Source: Sipunculus nudus (taxonomy: Eukaryota; Annelida; Sipuncula; Golfingiida; Sipunculidae). From it: a stretch of DNA of 64,000 nt. Within the stretch, counting starts at the first letter, position 1. Every line of letters starts with the position of its first letter. Where the stretch lies: assembly GCA_026874595.1 (NCBI GenBank), contig CM049311.1, positions 6,175,676 through 6,239,675 of the forward strand. Direction: 5' to 3'. This document shows, piece after piece, positions 3,401-61,352 of this stretch. The notes below the pieces were generated by a model. That model saw only the letters and a program-made list of their open reading frames with translations. It ran no database searches and was not told the DNA's origin. Position numbers and translations under genes: made by a program.

Positions 3401-5453
3401 TCAGTATGCTGATTTCTAGTTTCACCATAAGTAAAACGGTAGCGTTGATACTATTATGGGAAATAAAAAAATTAATGTTTTGTCGTAAAAGAATTGATTT
3501 TACTATAATATTGCATGAAAGGTGGTTTTAATCAAGTGCCTAATTTCACCAGTCCTTCACGAAATGACATTGATGGGCATTTCGTTTGGTGTTTCTGGAA
3601 GTGTGTTTCTGTGGTCAAAATTCATTGTAACTTCATATTAAGACTGATCAAAGATCATTGATGGTTTCTTAATCAACTGTAAAACAATAAAGAAAGCATT
3701 CTGATAAATACCAATTTATATTAATGGTATACATAGGATAACAATATATATATATGCCTTTGGGAGCAAGATGATTTAGCTTTAATAATATTAGTTCAAC
3801 TGGGCATAACATATTTATTTTTTTCCGAGCCCGTTAATATGAACCTCCTGAAAACCTAAAGCACATAGAAGCGAGCCTGATTTATTAACCAATTCTGATT
3901 AATATGCTCGTTAAGATAACATTAGTCTCTGTTATCAGTTGAGATGGTGCATAGTTTTTGTAGTCGCCTTATCAATTGAAGTATCTATCACGTTTTGATT
4001 GATAGCGGTAACATAGTTTACAGGTGTTTAGTATAACCGTGAAGATAGTCATTGTTTCTGAACAGAATACTGGAGATCAAGTCATTGTTTTAAAGCTCAA
4101 AGGGTCTTTTTTTCCCGCAAGAACAATAGTATAGAACATTGATAACGTGCTCGACATGTGTTGTACGATTAAATATTTATATGACAAACTTCAATTTCCT
4201 TGTCTGAAGCCTATGACAACTACCGCGGGGGGTTAGAACCTTAGCTCCACACCCACTGAGGGTGAGTGCACAATCACATGGTTGCTGGGCTCAAACATCT
4301 TTTTATTTAGAATCGCTTCATGCGTTCATATTCCCGCTAAGAACACACGCGGTGTAACTGTCTAGTATTGTAATACAATATAAATACATTTAATGGCGCA
4401 CCACTGAATAAGCTCTGTGGCGGATCCAGAAATTCGAGAACTATCGAGATTATTTTTCACCTATATGAATAAAATATAAAGCCATGTTCATTATTAAAGT
4501 TGATAACAGGTGCGCGGAGAGGGAACGGCAGGGGTGTCACTGTAGTTGTCGTGACCTATCAGAGTGTAATAACGGAAAGACTCCCTCCCTCGGTATAGAA
4601 ACATTTAGATGCTGTCTTAATCATAGGGCTGTTCACTAATATCCTCAACTTTTAAAATCAAATGTAATAAACTGTGGATAAATTGATAATTGAACAGCTA
4701 GGAAAGAAAGAAAGGGATATATAAAAAAATTGATTACGAATAACTGGGAAAATAAAAAGGAAAAATGAGAAATCTTACAGCGTGCGCCCCCTTTGGATCC
4801 GCCAATGAAGCTTTTTTTATTTGTTTTATATTGTATGAGACATAAACAACTCTTGTGCACTCTTTAAGCATAATTCAATAAATCTCTTACTCTTAAAATT
4901 TTAATAAATAACTTTCTTTATCCCACCATGACGATTGTTTAATGTACAGATCATTTAATGTACTGTCAGTAACACGTTTATTCTGTTGCGGGAAGTTTAA
5001 GAAAATAAACCTATAAGAATATATTGATTCTACTGATAAAATTACTCTAAATGCAAATCCTATTTTGGCGGAATTTCGACAAGAACTTCATTTTATGTGA
5101 CCGTTGCCGGTGATTGTGGGTACATTACTGTAATTATTATTAGATATAACAAAAATACTTAATTTTCATACATGACTGATCAAATAAAATACTGAGGTCG
5201 TAGGTCGTTCTTTTTGCACTTAGTCATCTCCTCATTTTTACTCAGTTGACTAACTCTTCCTGTTGTCAATTTCCCCCGGATGTGTCAGGTTGCAATGCAA
5301 CGAGCTGTACTCCTGAGCGATAGAAAAAGCCATAGGGAACTCTAGACTGCATAACTGAATCTACATGGAGATATCCTGATTTTAAGTAAATTCTACCATT
5401 GGACGGAGCAAGGATTAACGAAAGGGAGGGTGCCTCGGAAAGGGCAAAGAGTG

Positions 5454-10530: not shown

Positions 10531-13500
10531 TTAGAGCCCGACCGGATCCCTCAAGTCTTTCACCAAGTCCTCGGTAACCAAGTCATTTAGGCATTCCAAG
10601 GTGTACTTCCAGATGACTTCTTGTTTGAGTTTGTCCCTATAAATACCAATAATGAAATACAACTTAACATAACCAGTTTTGCAATTATGGAGAAATGGTA
10701 TGGAGAATGGCGGTAGGGAGAAGATTTTTTTTTCTCCCAATTTTGGGAAAATATTAATGTGACATTTCATACTGATAAATGTAAATTATTAGCCATAGAC
10801 TAATTACGCCCAGATTCCAACGTTTGAACCTCATAGATAACTCTGTTTATTTGATCAAATTTATCTTTTGAGTAAACGAATTTTTATTTTATTTGTATGG
10901 AAGTATACCGGGACCATTAAACTAAATGTCAGTTATTAATTACGGATACCTTGAGAGTTTAGATGACTTCGACAGTTTACAGTTCTCGTAGTACCCCGGC
11001 TCCTGGCCGGCCAGATCAGGATTCACCGCACAGTTAATGATGGTAGTGGCTCCCTCATAAGATGTTCGCATCACTCCTGACAACAACAAAAATGTCAAAC
11101 TGTTAGTACAAATGCAATACAATTCTTCTTCAGGAAGGCCGATACAGTTTTTTACGTTTGTTAAATTGAGAACCAGGTTTCAATATTATCGTTGCTGTTA
11201 ATGATTCTTTGATTGATCTTTATTTCCTCCGATTTCGGAGAGTACAACAATCAGTACCAAATTATACATTGAAAAAAAGGAACATTGGCAAAAAAAAAAA
11301 AAAAAAAACACCATACAACATGTGATTTGTCATAATAAATGTACAATAATTGATTTAATCTAACTTCAATAACATAAACAATAAGAACGTATACGAATAT
11401 ATTAATTTTGTATTTCTTCGGCCCTGATATAGGTTATCACCAATTTCATTTTAATATATATAAAATTGTGAATGCAGTAATCAATAAAGTTGATTTTTAA
11501 GAACAAGTACCAGCCAATTTGCAAAGCTTCCACCACGTTCCCCACAACCAGTCATTGTCGTAACCTCGCGATATCTCGGTCCGGACGATCCCAGGATGCA
11601 CCGCGTACAAGCTTATGTTACTTCCCTTCAGGCGGCGCCCGAGTGTGTACATCTGCATCACCTAGATAAAATATTATTGTACTTTGGAAACAGCCAGAAG
11701 CGGATCCGGGGGGGGGGGGGGGGGGGCAGGGGGTCCTTTTTCATCAGAAACAACGTTTTTTTAAGGGCTTCAGACAAAATTTTGCCGCCTGAACCCCCCG
11801 TTTTTCAGAACTGAGGACCTTTTTTTAGGGTTTTCCGTTGTCCTCCTGGGTTGGACCCCCCCCCCCTTTCCTAAATCCTGGATCCGCCCCTGACAGCAGA
11901 ATTACAGAAGACAACCCGAATAAAACACGTCTTATTGTCTCTGCACAACTGAATGTTTATATAGTGAATTCCGAGGTTCATTGCTTGCAACGAAGGTATA
12001 TATTTTATGTATAAATATCGTTTATACTGCATATATGTTGACACTATTAGTACCATAAAAACAGAATAAAACTAGAATACGGGTAGTCGACAAACGACTA
12101 CGTGTATCCGCCGAAATCAGAGTGGAACAGGTGAAGTGAGGCATGGATTGAGTGGCAAGGGAAAATAGAGTAAGGTGTGTTGCATATTAGCATGCATGTC
12201 TGCAGCCATAATGTATATGTAGGTTGCGCCACCTACCACAAATGCAGAAAGCTGTCACATAAATGTAGGTGGCGCCACCTGCCAAAAAATCGAGAAAGCA
12301 ATCCAAGATGTATAAACATGCAAAATCTTTAGGCAGATAAGTCAAACTACTACAGAGATATGAGTGGTTTTAGCGCACGGCAGACAAACAGACAGAAGCT
12401 GTGCAAAACTGGTGATATCTATACACATGCAAAATTTTGGCCTAATCGGTCAAACAGTTCCCGTGATATGAGCTTGGATGTCTGCAGCGTAAACTAGAAT
12501 GTAGGTGGCGCCACCTATCATAAAATCCAGAAAGCTGTCCAGAATGTATAAACCTGCAAGATTTTAGGTAGTTATGTCAAACCACTACAGACATATGAGT
12601 TATTTTATCCCAAGGCAGACAAACAGATGGACGTTGTGCAAAAATGGTTGCAAGAGGCGCCACCATTTTCGCATATGATAAAGAGCTATGTGAGATCTAT
12701 ACACATGCAAAAGTTTGGCCTAATCGGTCAAACGATTCCCAAGATATGAGCTTGGATGTCTGCAGCATAAACGTGAATATAGATGGCGCCACCTGTCACA
12801 AAATCGAAAAAGCTATCCAGGATGTATAAACCTGCAAAATATTAGGTGGATATGTCAAACCACTGCCGAGATATAAGTGATTCTATCCCACGGCAGACAA
12901 ACAGACGGACGCTGTGCAAAAGTGGTTGCAGGTGGCGCCACAATTTTTAGTGTATTTTATAAAGCTATCCAAGGGCTACATTTGTATAAAATTTTAGCCT
13001 GATCGGTCAAACGGTTCCCAAGTTATGAGCTTGGATGTCTGCAGCGTAAACATGAATGTAGATGGCGCCACCTGTCACAAAATCGAAAAAGCTATCCAGG
13101 ATGTATACGCATACCGAATTTCAGGTGAATAAGTCCAACTAATGCAGAGATATGACTGATTTTATCGCAAGGCAGATGAACAGATGGACACAGGTCAAAA
13201 ATGGTTGCAGGTGGCGCCACCATTTTTAGTGTATGTTATAAAGCTATCCAAGGGCTACATTTGTGTAAACTTTTTAGCCTGATCAGTCAAACGGTTCCCG
13301 AGATATGTGGGTTTATGTGTGGAAACAGACGCACAAATGGACGCAGAGCACAGAGGAAAGGTCATTGGTTAAAACAAAATCGGGGCGCAGCAGTTCACAT
13401 ATGACCCGAACATAATCCCGGGTTTCGTAAAATTCCGCCCAGCGGTTACGGAGGAGTTCTCCGGACACCTTCGCGGCGGCGGCGGCGGCGGCCAGCTGAA

Positions 13501-19296: not shown

Positions 19297-20858
19297 TGTT
19301 ACAACCCATAATGTAATAACCGGCCCATAATGTAATAACGGCCCATATTGTAATAAAAACGACCCATAATGTAATAATCATACCCTGCCCATATTGTAAT
19401 AAAACTGGCCCATACTGTAATAACGGCCCATAATGTAATAAAAAACGGCCCATATTGTAATAACGGCCCATATTGTAATAAAAACGACCCATATTGTATT
19501 AATGATACCCTACCCATATTGTACTAAAACGGGAAGTGGGAAAAACGAACCATATTGTAATAACATATTTATATTGTAATAACATATGTTTAAGCTCAAG
19601 AATGACAGGGCACACGCTTAGTGTCATTTACATAATATCCTGCCCCCTCCCATACCCTCTCCATGAACCTGTTACTAACCTTAATGAAACCATGGTTCAC
19701 AACTGAATAAAAAAAATCATATTTTCATACACTAAAATATAACGTATAATAATAATAATAATTATTATTATTATTATTATTTTAATAATAAAAATAATAT
19801 ATATATACATATATATACACGTATATATAACAGTTTTCATAGTACCCATGTATGCATATTAGCGCCCCCCCCCCCCTACAACTTTCGAATTTCTAGATCC
19901 GCCACTAATCATGGCCCCCTGCCCTCCCTCAAACCTCTCCCTGCTCTGCGCCCTATGCTCTACCTCTAGAACACAGAAACCGGCATTTTCAAATTGTTGT
20001 TTTGTTGTTTGGGATAATTATTTTTTTAAAAATTAAATTGTAAACTCTTGAATCGCACGAATGACGCGTCCAGGTTTTAACTTCAAATATATGCGTTTAA
20101 AGCTCTTTATTTATGCGACGTGTTATACATGCTAACCTTAGACATCTTAATCAATACATATATAGGCACCAAAAAATTGCAGCAGTACCTCCATTTATAA
20201 TTTCCAAATCTCGGGAGGTTTCGAGAGATCATATAAAATATTCTCTATGATACATTGAGCAAAACCACTGAAATTTAAACTTTCATTGATATTTTTCAAA
20301 GAATTAAAATACATTAAAATGTATCGATAATGAGAGTTTTGTATATTTTATCTGTTAAATTGACAAAATATTTACATTTTGGCGATACACACATATATAT
20401 ATATATACATATATATATATCATCTTGTTTAAATACTTTATCACCCTATTTAAACACTGATTCAACAAAAGGATAATCATGAATCATGGCCATATTTCGC
20501 TCATATTAGCTTGGTCACCGTTTTAAACAAATAGTCATTATGTAATCCAGTGGTTTTTCATACGTGTATGTTCACTTACACATTCGTGTCACGAGAAGTC
20601 AATATTTGAATTGTCTAAGTTAATTTGCATGAACTTTGATTTATAAAATTATTGGCCGTTTTACCCACCTTCGATTTTATTACAATATGGGCCGTTTTAC
20701 CCACTTGCGATTTTATTACAATATGGGCAGGGTATAGTTATTACAATATGGGCCGTTTTTTATTACATTATGGGCTATTATTACATTATGGGTCGTTTTT
20801 ATTACAATATGGGCCGTTATTACATTATGGGCCAGTTATTACATTATGGGTCGTAACA
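19297..20858. mobile_element. Fold-back element, 1562 bp, long inverted arms of short sub-repeats, possible 5-bp target duplication
   Basis: The left arm (19297 to about 19560) and right arm (about 20650-20858) are inverted copies that stay collinear for at least 80 bp and contain 8-12 copies of GGCCCATATTGTAATAA-like 17-mers. The outermost bases are TGTTACAACCCATAATGTAA on the left and TGTTACGACCCATAATGTAA read inward from the right. Each outer end is flanked by GCAGG (19292-19296 and 20859-20863). The 1.1-kb centre has microsatellites and no ORF of note. No known superfamily was recognised. Confidence 0.7.
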
Positions 20859-56700: not shown

Positions 56701-58892
56701 GTCTGTGTATCATGAAACAAAATGAACTGAAGATACCTGTATGTCATACCTAAACAACTCAGTCTGGAGTTCAAGTATGCTTAACATTTATTAATCTTTT
56801 ACAAGGATTGGTTAACAATTTGGGCGGCATGTATCTGTAATGATCCCATAATTCCCTGCAGGTGTCAGACTTCATCGGGACGTTCCAGGAACAGGAGGAG
56901 GAGAAGTACCATCTGCAGGTGTTGCGGTACTTCCCAGAAATGAATCAAGTCGTTGGTGAGTTTTTTTTAATATATACCCAGTGGGCACTGATCTAGATTT
57001 TTTTTTTAAAAAAAAGCTCTTTATATCAGCTTCCTTTAGAACTTCTTAATTTCTAATTAATTGAACCTCAAACTGAGAGAAATATAATTTTGTCCTGGAA
57101 AAGTATAGTTATTTTGTAAATTAAAAATTATTGCTGATGCAAAAAGGTTGGAGGGAGGATATTTTTACCTACAACAAAATATACATAGATATTTGATAGT
57201 AAATGCACACACTTTGTGAGGTCACAATCAAAGTTTACATCTGTGACGTGGTGCACATCCTCACAAAAGGGTTTGCAGTTCACAAATTGTTATAGTTATA
57301 TTCTTTTCATTAATCAATATTGCTTATTTTGTTTCCTCATATCAGCTTCAACCAGTAGAAGGCATTTAATTGTATGGAAGTACAACCCCTCTGGGTGTAT
57401 CACTGCGCTCAAGTGTCGCACCGGACTTCAGAGTTTGGCGTACAGTAAGTATATGTTTACCTTCTGAAAGGAATTGTACCTTCTTTTCTTTCATGATTAC
57501 ATTCTCTATTCACAGAAATATATGTGCAGAAATATTGCATATTTTAGTTGTAAATATGTTAAAGAATAAAGCACTGTTTTGGATATGAAGTGAAGTAGGC
57601 TTATATAGTACACTGAGTACACTGTCAGCATACTTAATACCGACATCACTTTATGTATTTGGAAAGCATGTTGTATCGTGTAGATTTGGTATATCTACCA
57701 TAGTTTATTAGTGAATTATTTGCTATATACAGTAGAATCCCCCCCTTGTGACCACCCCACAATTGCGACCACCCCAAAATTATGACCAGGATGCTCAGAC
57801 CCCAAGGTGGTCATAGTTGTGAGGTTCCACTGTATATGCTAATGATGTATTACTGATTCAAGGTATTCCAGAAATACAGACATTTCCCAGAGACAGTCCC
57901 CTGTTCTTAAACATCTATCGGACCACTGGCTTTGTCTGAGAATCAGTATTTCACCAATAAGAGAAACCATATCCAGGAGCACTTTAAAGTGTCTAGCATA
58001 AGCTTTTCTGTGCAAATAGCACTAAACACATTTTATACCTGAATTAAAAAAAATTAATATTTATAAAATAGACTATCATGGTGATTTAGCTTCTTTTCAT
58101 GCACAATCATCATGATTCTACCAGGGCAAGTTTGAGAGCATTTACGAGTCTAATTGTTATAGGTGTTGCAACCCTGGCATAAGACAGTGATACATAAAGT
58201 TGTAAAGAAATTCCTGACATTAGAGGCTTTAGAATTTTTTTTTGACATTGCATATTCTCTTGACTGAAGTTTGCCATGTGTTTTACAGCACGTAAGGTTC
58301 CCATCTTGATCTTCAGTGGAGATGCAGAGGGAATCATCACCAAGTGGGAGAGGATGCAGTCAAATCACTTCATGTACAGGTAAGTTAATTAAATAAATAT
58401 CCAGGTCAGCATGATTGTCTCCTGTAAATTGGAAAAAAAAACATGTTTCCATACAAACTCAGTCAAACAATTAGTATGTATTTGTATTATTTTCTTTTCT
58501 ATCAATTATAATGTGAACTTTAAAAATAATGGTCATTATAAGTGTCATGAGCTGGTGCTGTGTTGGACTGAAAGGTATTCTTGAATAGGTCAATAAATAT
58601 TAAAAATACTGTTTACTATCATCATTAGTCTAAAGCAGAAACATCATTATAGACATGCATAGTTCATAATGTTGTACTTGTAACTGTGCCATTCATTGAT
58701 GACATAAGCTTTGTTATTATTTATAGCAAAGAAGTGTTCTGTTTAACTGAGGCCAGGAAGTCCAGGACAAAGAAAAAATCTGATGAAGGACAGAGTGGCC
58801 TGCACAATGATGAGGACCCAGTGGCATTCTTCAACCGTCGTAACAAGACGACCAGCAGTCACTATGCGTTCAACAGACCTAGAGTGCCATCG
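41386..58892 (+). CDS. WD40-repeat beta-propeller protein, 12 firm exons (420 codons)
   Basis: Exons: 41386-41488, 45724-45814, 46422-46509, 46936-47032, 47431-47539, 48472-48540, 49141-49209, 53366-53549, 56862-56955, 57346-57444, 58289-58379, 58727-58892. Every join is GT-AG and in phase, giving one continuous reading frame. It reads as about eight WD40 blades; recognisable blade ends are DGVIKVW, DGVINVW, AAIRVYD, DQRLIIYD, DKCVKVW, SYAYLFD, RHLIVWK and EGIITKW. A Lys/Arg-rich tail (KSRTKKKS) and an acidic/Asn-rich linker follow. WD40 propellers are docking platforms with no catalysis of their own. There is no second domain, so the partner is unknown; I could not place it confidently in a named WDR family. 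Introns range from 0.34 to 4.2 kb and are full of repeats. The 3' end is uncertain (see 61355). Confidence 0.88.
41489..45723. other. Intron 1 of the WD40 gene (4.2 kb)
   Basis: Very AT-rich. A 16-base C run lies at 45310-45325. I found no exon, transposon end or RNA gene in it. Confidence 0.6.
47690..47940 (-). mobile_element. tRNA-derived SINE, near full length
   Basis: On the minus strand the head has an A-box-like TGGTCGAGGGG (47927-47917) and a B-box-like GGTTTGATCCC (47883-47873), then a body, and ends in an AT-rich AATAAATAAG tail near 47700. It lies in intron 5 of the WD40 gene in antisense orientation. Two further relatives are in this window (28046, 36490). Confidence 0.75.
49478..52640. 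mobile_element. Bivalve-type dispersed repeat with GCTCAGCTGA inverted ends and about 680-bp internal repeats
   Basis: Opens TTTAGCTCAGCTGACTATAAG with a TCTGAGCTATAGT partner, followed by a GTCCGTC run. It closes near TCAGCTGAGCGCCGTGACCC, which inverts the GCTCAGCTGA of the left end. Internally the stretch around 49653-50050 (CTCCTACCATG, ATTGGGTCA, GAGATATTAAGGAAAAA, TAATCAAAATTTGATTG) recurs at about 50338-50720, roughly 685 bp on, and a fragment recurs near 52110. No ORF over 110 residues. It fills most of the largest central WD40 intron (49210-53365). Confidence 0.5.
53695..53743. repeat. (AT)n microsatellite
   Basis: Pure AT run 145 bp after the donor of WD40 exon 8. Confidence 0.95.
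53744..56861. other. Intron 8 of the WD40 gene, distal part
   Basis: About 3 kb of AT-rich sequence with no recognisable repeat family or exon. Confidence 0.6.
57668..57896. repeat. Source copy of a perfect 229-bp duplication
   Basis: Identical base for base to 59907-60135 (constant offset 2239). It includes a whole 103-bp MITE (57730-57832). Lies in WD40 intron 10. Confidence 0.9.
57730..57832. mobile_element. 103-bp Tigger-type MITE flanked by TA
   Basis: Ends CAGTAGAATCCCCCC and, inverted, CAGTGGAACCTCACA, each followed by a TGACCACC block; TA on both sides. No coding capacity. The second copy at 59969-60071 arrived as part of the larger duplication, not by transposition, because the flanks are copied too. 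Confidence 0.75.
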
Positions 58893-59329
58893 GTAGGTAA
58901 TAATGATCATGATAGGTTTTCATTCTGAAATGTTTTGAAATAAATCTACATTTATTTGCAAGAAGATTGTGCAGAGCTTTGATGTTACCCCATGAGAAGG
59001 TTCAATGCATTGCTCTCAAAAATAAGCTTGAACTCTTGAAAGCTTGTAGGACACCTAATTATATAACTTTTTTCTTACATGACTCTTCATTACAATTAGC
59101 AAAAACCCTGATACGTAATATAGTCTGAACCTTGGAACCTTATTCAGTAGTGTGCTGTCATTGATATACACATTAGTAATTTTGTCTGATCTTCTATGTA
59201 TTATTATGATTGAATTTATCAAGAATTATCTGGAGAACCAACTTGTGGTTAAAATTTCACTGTGATTGATACCCTTTAGAATTTTATGGATAGCCAGCAA
59301 TTCAGTGATTAAAATAAATGCTTTATTAG

Positions 59330-60850
59330 GGCCCTGCTTGACAAGCGGTGCCCTATAGTGATCACCGTGTCAGCCCGTCCTTCCATTGGTCTCTCCATCC
59401 GTCCTTCCGTCAGTGACAATTTCTTTTGCACACTATAACTGAACAACAACATACTGCAGCTTTCCCAAATTCACAGGGATGATTGGTAACTATGAGGGCT
59501 CCAGACGTATTGAATCACAGACATGCAGAAATTCCAATGTGGCTGTCACAGCCCAGTCGCTGATTTTCTTTTGCATGCAATAACTCAACAACTACATATT
59601 GCAGCTTTCCCAAATTTGCAGGGATGATTGGTACCTATAAAGGCTCCAGGCCTATGGAATTACAGACCTGTCGGAATTCCAATATGGCCACCACAGCCCA
59701 TTCACTGATTTTCTATTGTGCACGATAATTCAACAACAACCTACTGCAACTTTCCAAAATTCACAGGGATACTTGGTATCTATGAGGGCTCGCTCCAGAC
59801 CTATTGAATAACAGACCTGTTGGAATTCCAATATGGCCACCCCAGCCCGATCACTGATTTTCTTTTGCACGCGATAACTCAACAATAACCTACTGCAGCT
59901 TTCCCAATGTTGTATCGTGTAGATTTGGTATATCTACCATAGTTTATTAGTGAATTATTTGCTATATACAGTAGAATCCCCCCCTTGTGACCACCCCACA
60001 ATTGCGACCACCCCAAAATTATGACCAGGATGCTCAGACCCCAAGGTGGTCATAGTTGTGAGGTTCCACTGTATATGCTAATGATGTATTACTGATTCAA
60101 GGTATTCCAGAAATACAGACATTTCCCAGAGACAGGGATGATTGGTAACTATGAGGGCTCCAGACGTATTGAATCACAGACATGCAGAAATTCCAATGTG
60201 GCTGTCACAGCCCAGTCGCTGATTTTCTTTTGCATGCAATAACTCAACAACTACATATTGCAGCTTTCCCAAATTTGCAGGGATGATTGGTACCTATAAA
60301 GGCTCCAGGCCTATGGAATTACAGACCTGTCGGAATTCCAATATGGCCACCACAGCCCATTCACTGATTTTCTATTGTGCACGATAATTCAACAACAACC
60401 TACTGCAACTTTCCAAAATTCACAGGGATACTTGGTATCTATGAGGGCTCGCTCCAGACCTATTGAATAACAGACCTGTTGGAATTCCAATATGGCCACC
60501 CCAGCCCGATCACTGATTTTCTTTTGCACGCGATAACTCAACAATAACCTACTGCAGCTTTCCCAATTTCACAGGGATCATTGGTGCCTATGAGGGCTCC
60601 AGACCTATTGAATTACAGACTTGCTCAAATCAAATATGGCTAACAGACTACATTTGGTGATTTTCTATTGCACACATTATTTCAGATATATCTTCTTTAA
60701 TATCATTTGATCCAGTAGGATTTTTCCCTCATGCATATGGATAAAAAACTGTTTCTATTTGTCATATTTTTAAAAATTAACTTAATTTTTCACCCATATG
60801 TAAACACATCCAGCACTAGCAGAGACGCGGGACCCTCTGAGGACCATTGT
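59330..60850. repeat. About 143-bp tandem units, with a 436-bp block duplicated around a 229-bp filler
   Basis: Units with CTGCAGCTTTCCCAAATT, CAGGGATGATTGGTA, CTCCAGACCTATTGAAT and GGAATTCCAATATGGCC recur at roughly 143-bp spacing. Block 59473-59908 is repeated without visible change at 60132-60567. Between them lies 59907-60135, copied from 57668-57896. The family opens at GGGCCCTGCTTGACAAGC and closes near GCGGGACCCTCTGAGGACC. In intron 12 of the WD40 gene. Confidence 0.85.
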
Positions 60851-61039
60851 CCATTGTCTGACCACATCTAGTTTCTTTTACAGCTTTATCTTTATTAGAA
60901 AAAATAGTGCAATATGGTTGCCTTGGTCCTTTTGGTAAAATAAACAAATCTTAGAACATTTTTAAAGAATTCAACTCATTTTGTTTTTAATTTTAGGTTT
61001 TCCATTTCAAGCTGTGTTTTTATCATTGATAAACATATA

Positions 61040-61352
61040 TATCATGTCGTACTGTGGATATATATTATGACACCATTTTATCGGTTGGTATGAACCATTT
61101 TATATTGTTTATCAGGGGGTTCATATAATATGACAGTTATACTGGTGGGTATATATAATGTCATGCTGTGTTTTACATGCAGTAGGTACATATTTTGTCA
61201 TACAACACTGTGTATCGATCATCTGTGAGTACTGATATATAATATGACATTGTTTTACCTGTGGGTATATATCCTGTGATGTAGTGTTTTACAAGTGGGT
61301 AAATGTAATATGTTACCTGGTGGGTATATATCATGTGATGCTGTGTTTTACC
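61040..61352. repeat. Degenerate 50-70 bp tandem units ending in TTTTAC
   Basis: Units of the form GTGGGTATATATxATGT...TGTGTTTTACx recur about five times up to the acceptor of the possible last WD40 exon. The acceptor TTTTACCAG is itself the end of one unit. Confidence 0.6.

Follow-up and report, generated by a model that had tools for sequence, protein, structure and literature searches.

A discontinuous duplication with a filler copied from nearby in the satellite array of a HINE-like element of Sipunculus nudus

Duplications interrupted by copied DNA have been described in several systems. For the MMBIR/FoSTeS model, PMC2621351 outlines discontinuous duplications with joints of 2-5 bp, endpoints near repeats and inserted sequence from nearby. 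Cycles of templated insertions are presented in PMC7025897 as somatic structural variants of human cancers that typically join different reference chromosomes. In C. elegans, helq-1 duplications range according to PMC8654963 from about 100 bp to 10 kb and show microhomology as well as occasional templated insertions. HINE elements with central satellite repeats have also been described, of which Cg_HINE of the Pacific oyster is an example (PMC7492417). In the titles and abstract beginnings that were covered, neither a report of the locus presented here nor one of a like event in a mollusc was found.

Here, we analysed a window of 64 kb, i.e. the whole stretch of S. nudus DNA presented above, with respect to a structure in which two segments, termed A and F, each occur twice, while the segment X between the donor copy of F and the first copy of A does not. 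The order along the window is F-X-A-F-A, which represents a complex, discontinuous duplication (Table 1). Both pairs match with 0 mismatches and are maximal, as neither of them can be extended on either side. Thereby, the 436-bp tandem copy and the exact 229-bp filler named in a preliminary description of this DNA were confirmed, and the AT and ACAG that it had placed at the joints were found again base by base. After filtering out simple repeats, the A and F pairs are the sole exact direct repeats of at least 60 bp in the window, and the window is free of any N. Two exons that we predict for a possible WD-repeat gene are situated in segment X, as is the left arm of the HINE-like element described below.

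Table 1. Positions of the rearranged segments, of the HINE-like element and of neighbouring features in the window.
Feature	Position	Strand	Length	Basis or remark
F, donor of the filler	57668..57896	+	229 bp	exact match to 59907-60135
MITE-like element in donor F	57729..57833	.	105 bp	imperfect terminal inverted repeats; flanked on either side by ATAT
X, between donor F and A	57897..59472	+	1576 bp	absent from the second copy
Predicted exon in X	58289-58379		91 bp	reading frame and splice-site positions
Predicted exon in X	58727-58892		166 bp	reading frame and splice-site positions
Left arm of the HINE-like element	59322..59419	+		match in 20/20 fetched loci
Satellite array of ~145-bp units, broken by the filler	59420..60673	+		detected by TRF to the left and right of the filler, and by self-BLAST
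A (three-unit block), copy 1	59473..59908	+	436 bp	exact, maximal match
F copy (filler)	59907..60135	+	229 bp	exact, maximal match
Joint 1, AT with which A ends and F starts	59907..59908	+	2 bp	
MITE carried inside the filler copy	59968..60072	.	105 bp	
Joint 2, ACAG with which F ends and A starts	60132..60135	+	4 bp	
A (three-unit block), copy 2	60132..60567	+	436 bp	exact match
Last array unit and right arm	60568..60852	+		right arm in 19/20 loci

The rearranged block lies within an element (about 59322-60852) that can be classified from its sequence as HINE-like, i.e. as a putative non-autonomous Helentron-type element. Two arms around a short satellite-like array, dispersed through the genome, are the arrangement of HINEs and were found in 19 of 20 fetched loci; we use the label HINE-like instead of HINE because the ends of the element are set only by BLAST limits. 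Judged from the relatives, its left limit is at 59320-59325. The units of the array start at 59474, 59619, 59764, 60133, 60278, 60423 and 60572, and block A corresponds to three of these units. Identity is 79-81% among units 1-3 and 74-80% between these and the fourth unit, which is partial. Since the units are thus only 74-81% alike, the complete identity of the two copies of A is not the usual state of the array.

For comparison, 20 loci of the same genome were fetched as 7-kb stretches (140 kb), chosen by hand from those that match the block most strongly and therefore not a random sample. The left arm and the array are present in all of them, while the right arm is absent from one (L018). 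In the stretches L002-L008, of which L002 and L008 overlap, six of seven match the region of the last unit and the right arm with 88-93% identity over 208-287 aligned bases; in L004, no match to this region was found. The stretches L009-L011 represent the same loci as L005-L007. Main arrays of the 20 loci comprise 4.1-13.9 units, and at a tolerance of 25 bp all arrays except that of L024 are unbroken. In L024 (2960-4707), two arrays are split by 32 bp of right arm, which are an exact copy of its own positions 4544-4575. Unmatched DNA was detected between the array and the right arm in L012 (603 bp, 2125-2727) and in L022 (201 bp, 3725-3925), and no donor for it was found within the respective fetched 7 kb. 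A second case of a local filler that does not derive from the element was found in none of the 20 relatives examined.

Exact repeats of at least 100 bp occur within the arrays of six of these 20 relatives, with shifts of one, two, three or four units. The longest of them, which is also the longest exact direct repeat in the 20 stretches, has 359 bp and a three-unit shift. Long exact in-phase repeats were observed in L020 (3331-4367) and L027 (2900-4065), with shifts of three (435 bp) and four units (577 bp), respectively, and these arrays have apparently undergone recent multi-unit growth without a filler. In-phase duplication of several units, which such arrays acquire on their own, is thus routine in the HINE-like family, and the filler is what is unusual at this locus. 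When one copy of A and the filler are subtracted, 595 bp of array are left by arithmetic, corresponding to about 4.1 units. Arrays of 590-591 bp are found in the relatives L010, L013 and L016, so that the starting state that we infer is a normal element. The 436 bp of A compare with a three-unit step of 439 bp, and the return point is therefore in phase to 3 bp. Depending on how the shared bases are counted, the phase agreement is 3-9 bp, which by arithmetic would be reached by chance in roughly 5-13% of cases and is thus only suggestive.

Further repeats are present in the window. At 12431-13307, a satellite-like array has 3.1 copies of a 279-bp unit with 83% match. Two arrays of short units resembling CCCATAATGTAATAACGG at 19305-19527 and 20650-20854 are oppositely oriented, with about 1.1 kb between them, and resemble the arms of an inverted element. 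To the right of the HINE-like element, degenerate repeats with a core resembling GTGGGTATATAT are irregularly spaced at 61036-61352.

To identify the source of the filler, F was searched in the 1.43-Gb assembly, where 40 of 1445 candidates were scored. Among the 49 matches listed, only the donor and its copy are full-length, and the donor is therefore local. The other 47 of the 49 fall within about positions 50-180 of F, i.e. the MITE and adjoining bases, and are 79-89% identical. Donor F is located 1.6 kb upstream of block A, between a predicted exon ending at 57444 and the next one beginning at 58289. Its MITE-like element has imperfect terminal inverted repeats that match at 20 of 31 terminal positions. 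Together with this element, its flanks of 61 bp and 63 bp were copied, and transposition of the MITE as the source of the filler is ruled out, as the copy extends past both ends of the element. The sequences thus indicate that the local copy is the donor and the MITE a passenger, in agreement with the preliminary description, according to which a MITE had been carried along without transposition. A corresponding search with A-F-A, in which 40 of 4013 candidates were scored, yielded no full-length match other than itself among the matches listed; among these, the long match that ranks next for A has 87% identity.

The rearrangement adjoins predicted exons of a probable animal gene. For the predicted exon ending at 58892, two donor sites are possible and its end is ambiguous; no exons were identified to the right of 58892. 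We tentatively consider this a predicted WD-repeat gene. Its upstream pieces gave WD40-type and other matches, all below the curated cut-offs, while the three joined exons gave just two sub-threshold matches, AKAP_110 and F-protein, which were of no use. No match of the predicted gene to a solved structure was found.

For both joints, the number of shared bases was compared with what joints placed at random in the same stretch would share. At least 2 shared bases are expected by chance with P = 0.18, at least 4 with P = 0.021, and a sum of at least 6 with P = 0.015. The joint microhomology is therefore modest: it favours annealing, yet it is no strong signature. Inverted matches as would be needed for a fold-back were also considered. 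One of 7 bp is present near joint 1 and one of 6 bp at joint 2, lengths attained in 3% and 10% of random pairs, respectively, and they were given no weight because neither of the copied segments is inverted.

With moderate confidence, we attribute the structure to one template-switching event of the MMBIR/FoSTeS-like kind, i.e. a cycle of templated insertions on a short scale. While the satellite array was being copied, the nascent strand would halt at the boundary between the third and fourth unit (59908), re-prime via 2 bp at 57668 and copy 229 bp, before it returned to position 59473 of the array by a jump on the 4 bp of ACAG. This point of re-entry would be three units upstream of the exit and would deviate from the repeat phase of the exit by no more than a few bases. 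Block A would then be copied again and synthesis would proceed through to the flank. Read from the other strand, the same two jumps would take place in reversed order. Template switching had already been proposed in the preliminary description and is still the best single explanation; the proposal missed the satellite array as the context, the microhomology is modest as a signature, and a two-step route yields identical letters.

In such a two-step route, positions 57668-59908 (2241 bp) would first be duplicated in tandem, with AT as the joint, and the second copy would then lose 57897-59472 from its middle (1576 bp, joint ACAG). This gives exactly the order F-X-A-F-A with one simple microhomology joint per step, and the letters are the same as in two-jump copying. 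Because X holds two predicted exons, the route passes through an allele with extra exons, and selection might favour the loss of these extra copies. It demands, however, two independent events within 2.3 kb, and no intermediate is present among the listed assembly matches. Since both steps must precede any substitution in 659 bp, a single event is more economical, and we regard the two-step history as rather unlikely. The two exact copies, the joints, the local donor, the array context and the absence of a further full-length locus among the listed assembly matches are observed, while one event as opposed to two, its timing in the germ line and the responsible polymerase are matters that we infer. 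Another route would start from a break in the array: the sister chromatid would serve as the template for extending the broken end (failed synthesis-dependent annealing), and polymerase-theta end joining would then close the break and add a templated insertion, so that a tandem duplication with filler is formed. That the joint coincides with a unit boundary, at a loss of about 3 bp, would suit such a repair, but the source of the filler is 1.6 kb upstream of the block, and insertions made by polymerase theta are usually far shorter than 229 bp, which counts against it. In helq-1 mutants of C. elegans, similar duplications with microhomology and occasional templated insertions are described (PMC8654963). 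On balance, break repair is an improbable origin of this locus. If the array had instead grown first, with three units doubled in phase and an unrelated templated insertion placed later between the copies, this would agree with in-phase multi-unit duplications being common, as seen from the exact repeats in the six arrays mentioned above. In that case, the filler must have hit 11 bp common to units 1 and 4 out of about 880 bp (by arithmetic about 1%), and 0 of 20 relatives have an unrelated filler inside the array at 25-bp tolerance, which makes growth before insertion highly improbable.

The absence of differences also bears on age and on the question of an artefact, as the preliminary description had offered a very recent origin or an assembly error as the alternatives. 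With 0 differences in 659 bp, the 95% upper bound of the age is 0.28, 0.57, 1.1 or 2.3 million years or generations at assumed rates of 8e-9, 4e-9, 2e-9 and 1e-9, respectively. A very recent origin is thus possible and not forced, since at such assumed rates the identity allows about 300,000 years or more. An assembly or amplification artefact could have arisen by joining an F-A deletion haplotype behind a full allele, or from a chimeric read, and F-X-A followed by F-A is indeed the expected product of joining a full and a deleted haplotype. Against this, the overlap at the A-F joint comprises just 2 bp and no N is present, and the haplotypes would have to be identical over 659 bp, the probability of which is 0.27, 0.037 and 0.0014 at an assumed heterozygosity of 0.2, 0.5 and 1%, respectively. 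In addition, the assembly is chromosome-scale, with 153 contigs of which at least 12 have 64-111 Mb. We consider an artefact unlikely. No second copy of the locus, alternative allele or haplotig is among the matches listed in the A-F-A and F searches.

Template switching at this locus would represent a clean two-jump rearrangement in a reference assembly, with a local donor that is otherwise unmatched in full length among the listed matches. It could also be imagined that satellite arrays of HINE-like elements generally grow by in-phase template switching, with exit and re-entry at equivalent points of different units, and that the excursion into nearby DNA was preserved here and marks the route. 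The phase agreement speaks for this generalization, and the fact that the 20 relatives gave no further filler of this kind speaks against it, so that we consider it doubtful. If more HINE-like arrays had in-phase duplications together with local fillers, template switching would be favoured over plain unequal crossing-over as the cause of length change; a single case cannot decide between the two.

Compared with the known systems, the locus is a further example of an already known type of mutation. It shares with the Class 2 templated sequence insertion polymorphisms outlined in PMC5110952 the lack of a target-site duplication and the microhomology at the joints; unlike in these, the donor is not distant but about 2 kb away, and the insertion comes together with a duplication. 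Duplications by failed SDSA and polymerase theta resemble it in size range, microhomology and the occasional templated insertion, whereas the filler of this locus consists of a single long and exact block. The host element is similar to Cg_HINE in having a left arm with a microsatellite-like stretch (here resembling CCGTCC), a right arm, dispersed copies and array units in the range of 140-180 bp. This likeness concerns the architecture, and in contrast to Cg_HINE the array is interrupted by unrelated DNA. As in the cycle of templated insertions, a copied segment was linked in and a piece of the host locus was replicated again upon return, leaving two joints (A-F-A), although here this is found in a reference assembly and within 3 kb, and not in a somatic cancer genome. 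With regard to MMBIR/FoSTeS, the jumps, which cover about 2 kb and 1.6 kb, are small against the tens to hundreds of kb of the model. The locus agrees with it in the discontinuous duplication, in the insertion of nearby sequence and in joints of 2 and 4 bp, which are inside its range of 2-5 bp, and also in the position of the endpoints near repeats, as A ends in a satellite array and F holds a MITE, these being short dispersed repeats instead of the low copy repeats of the model.
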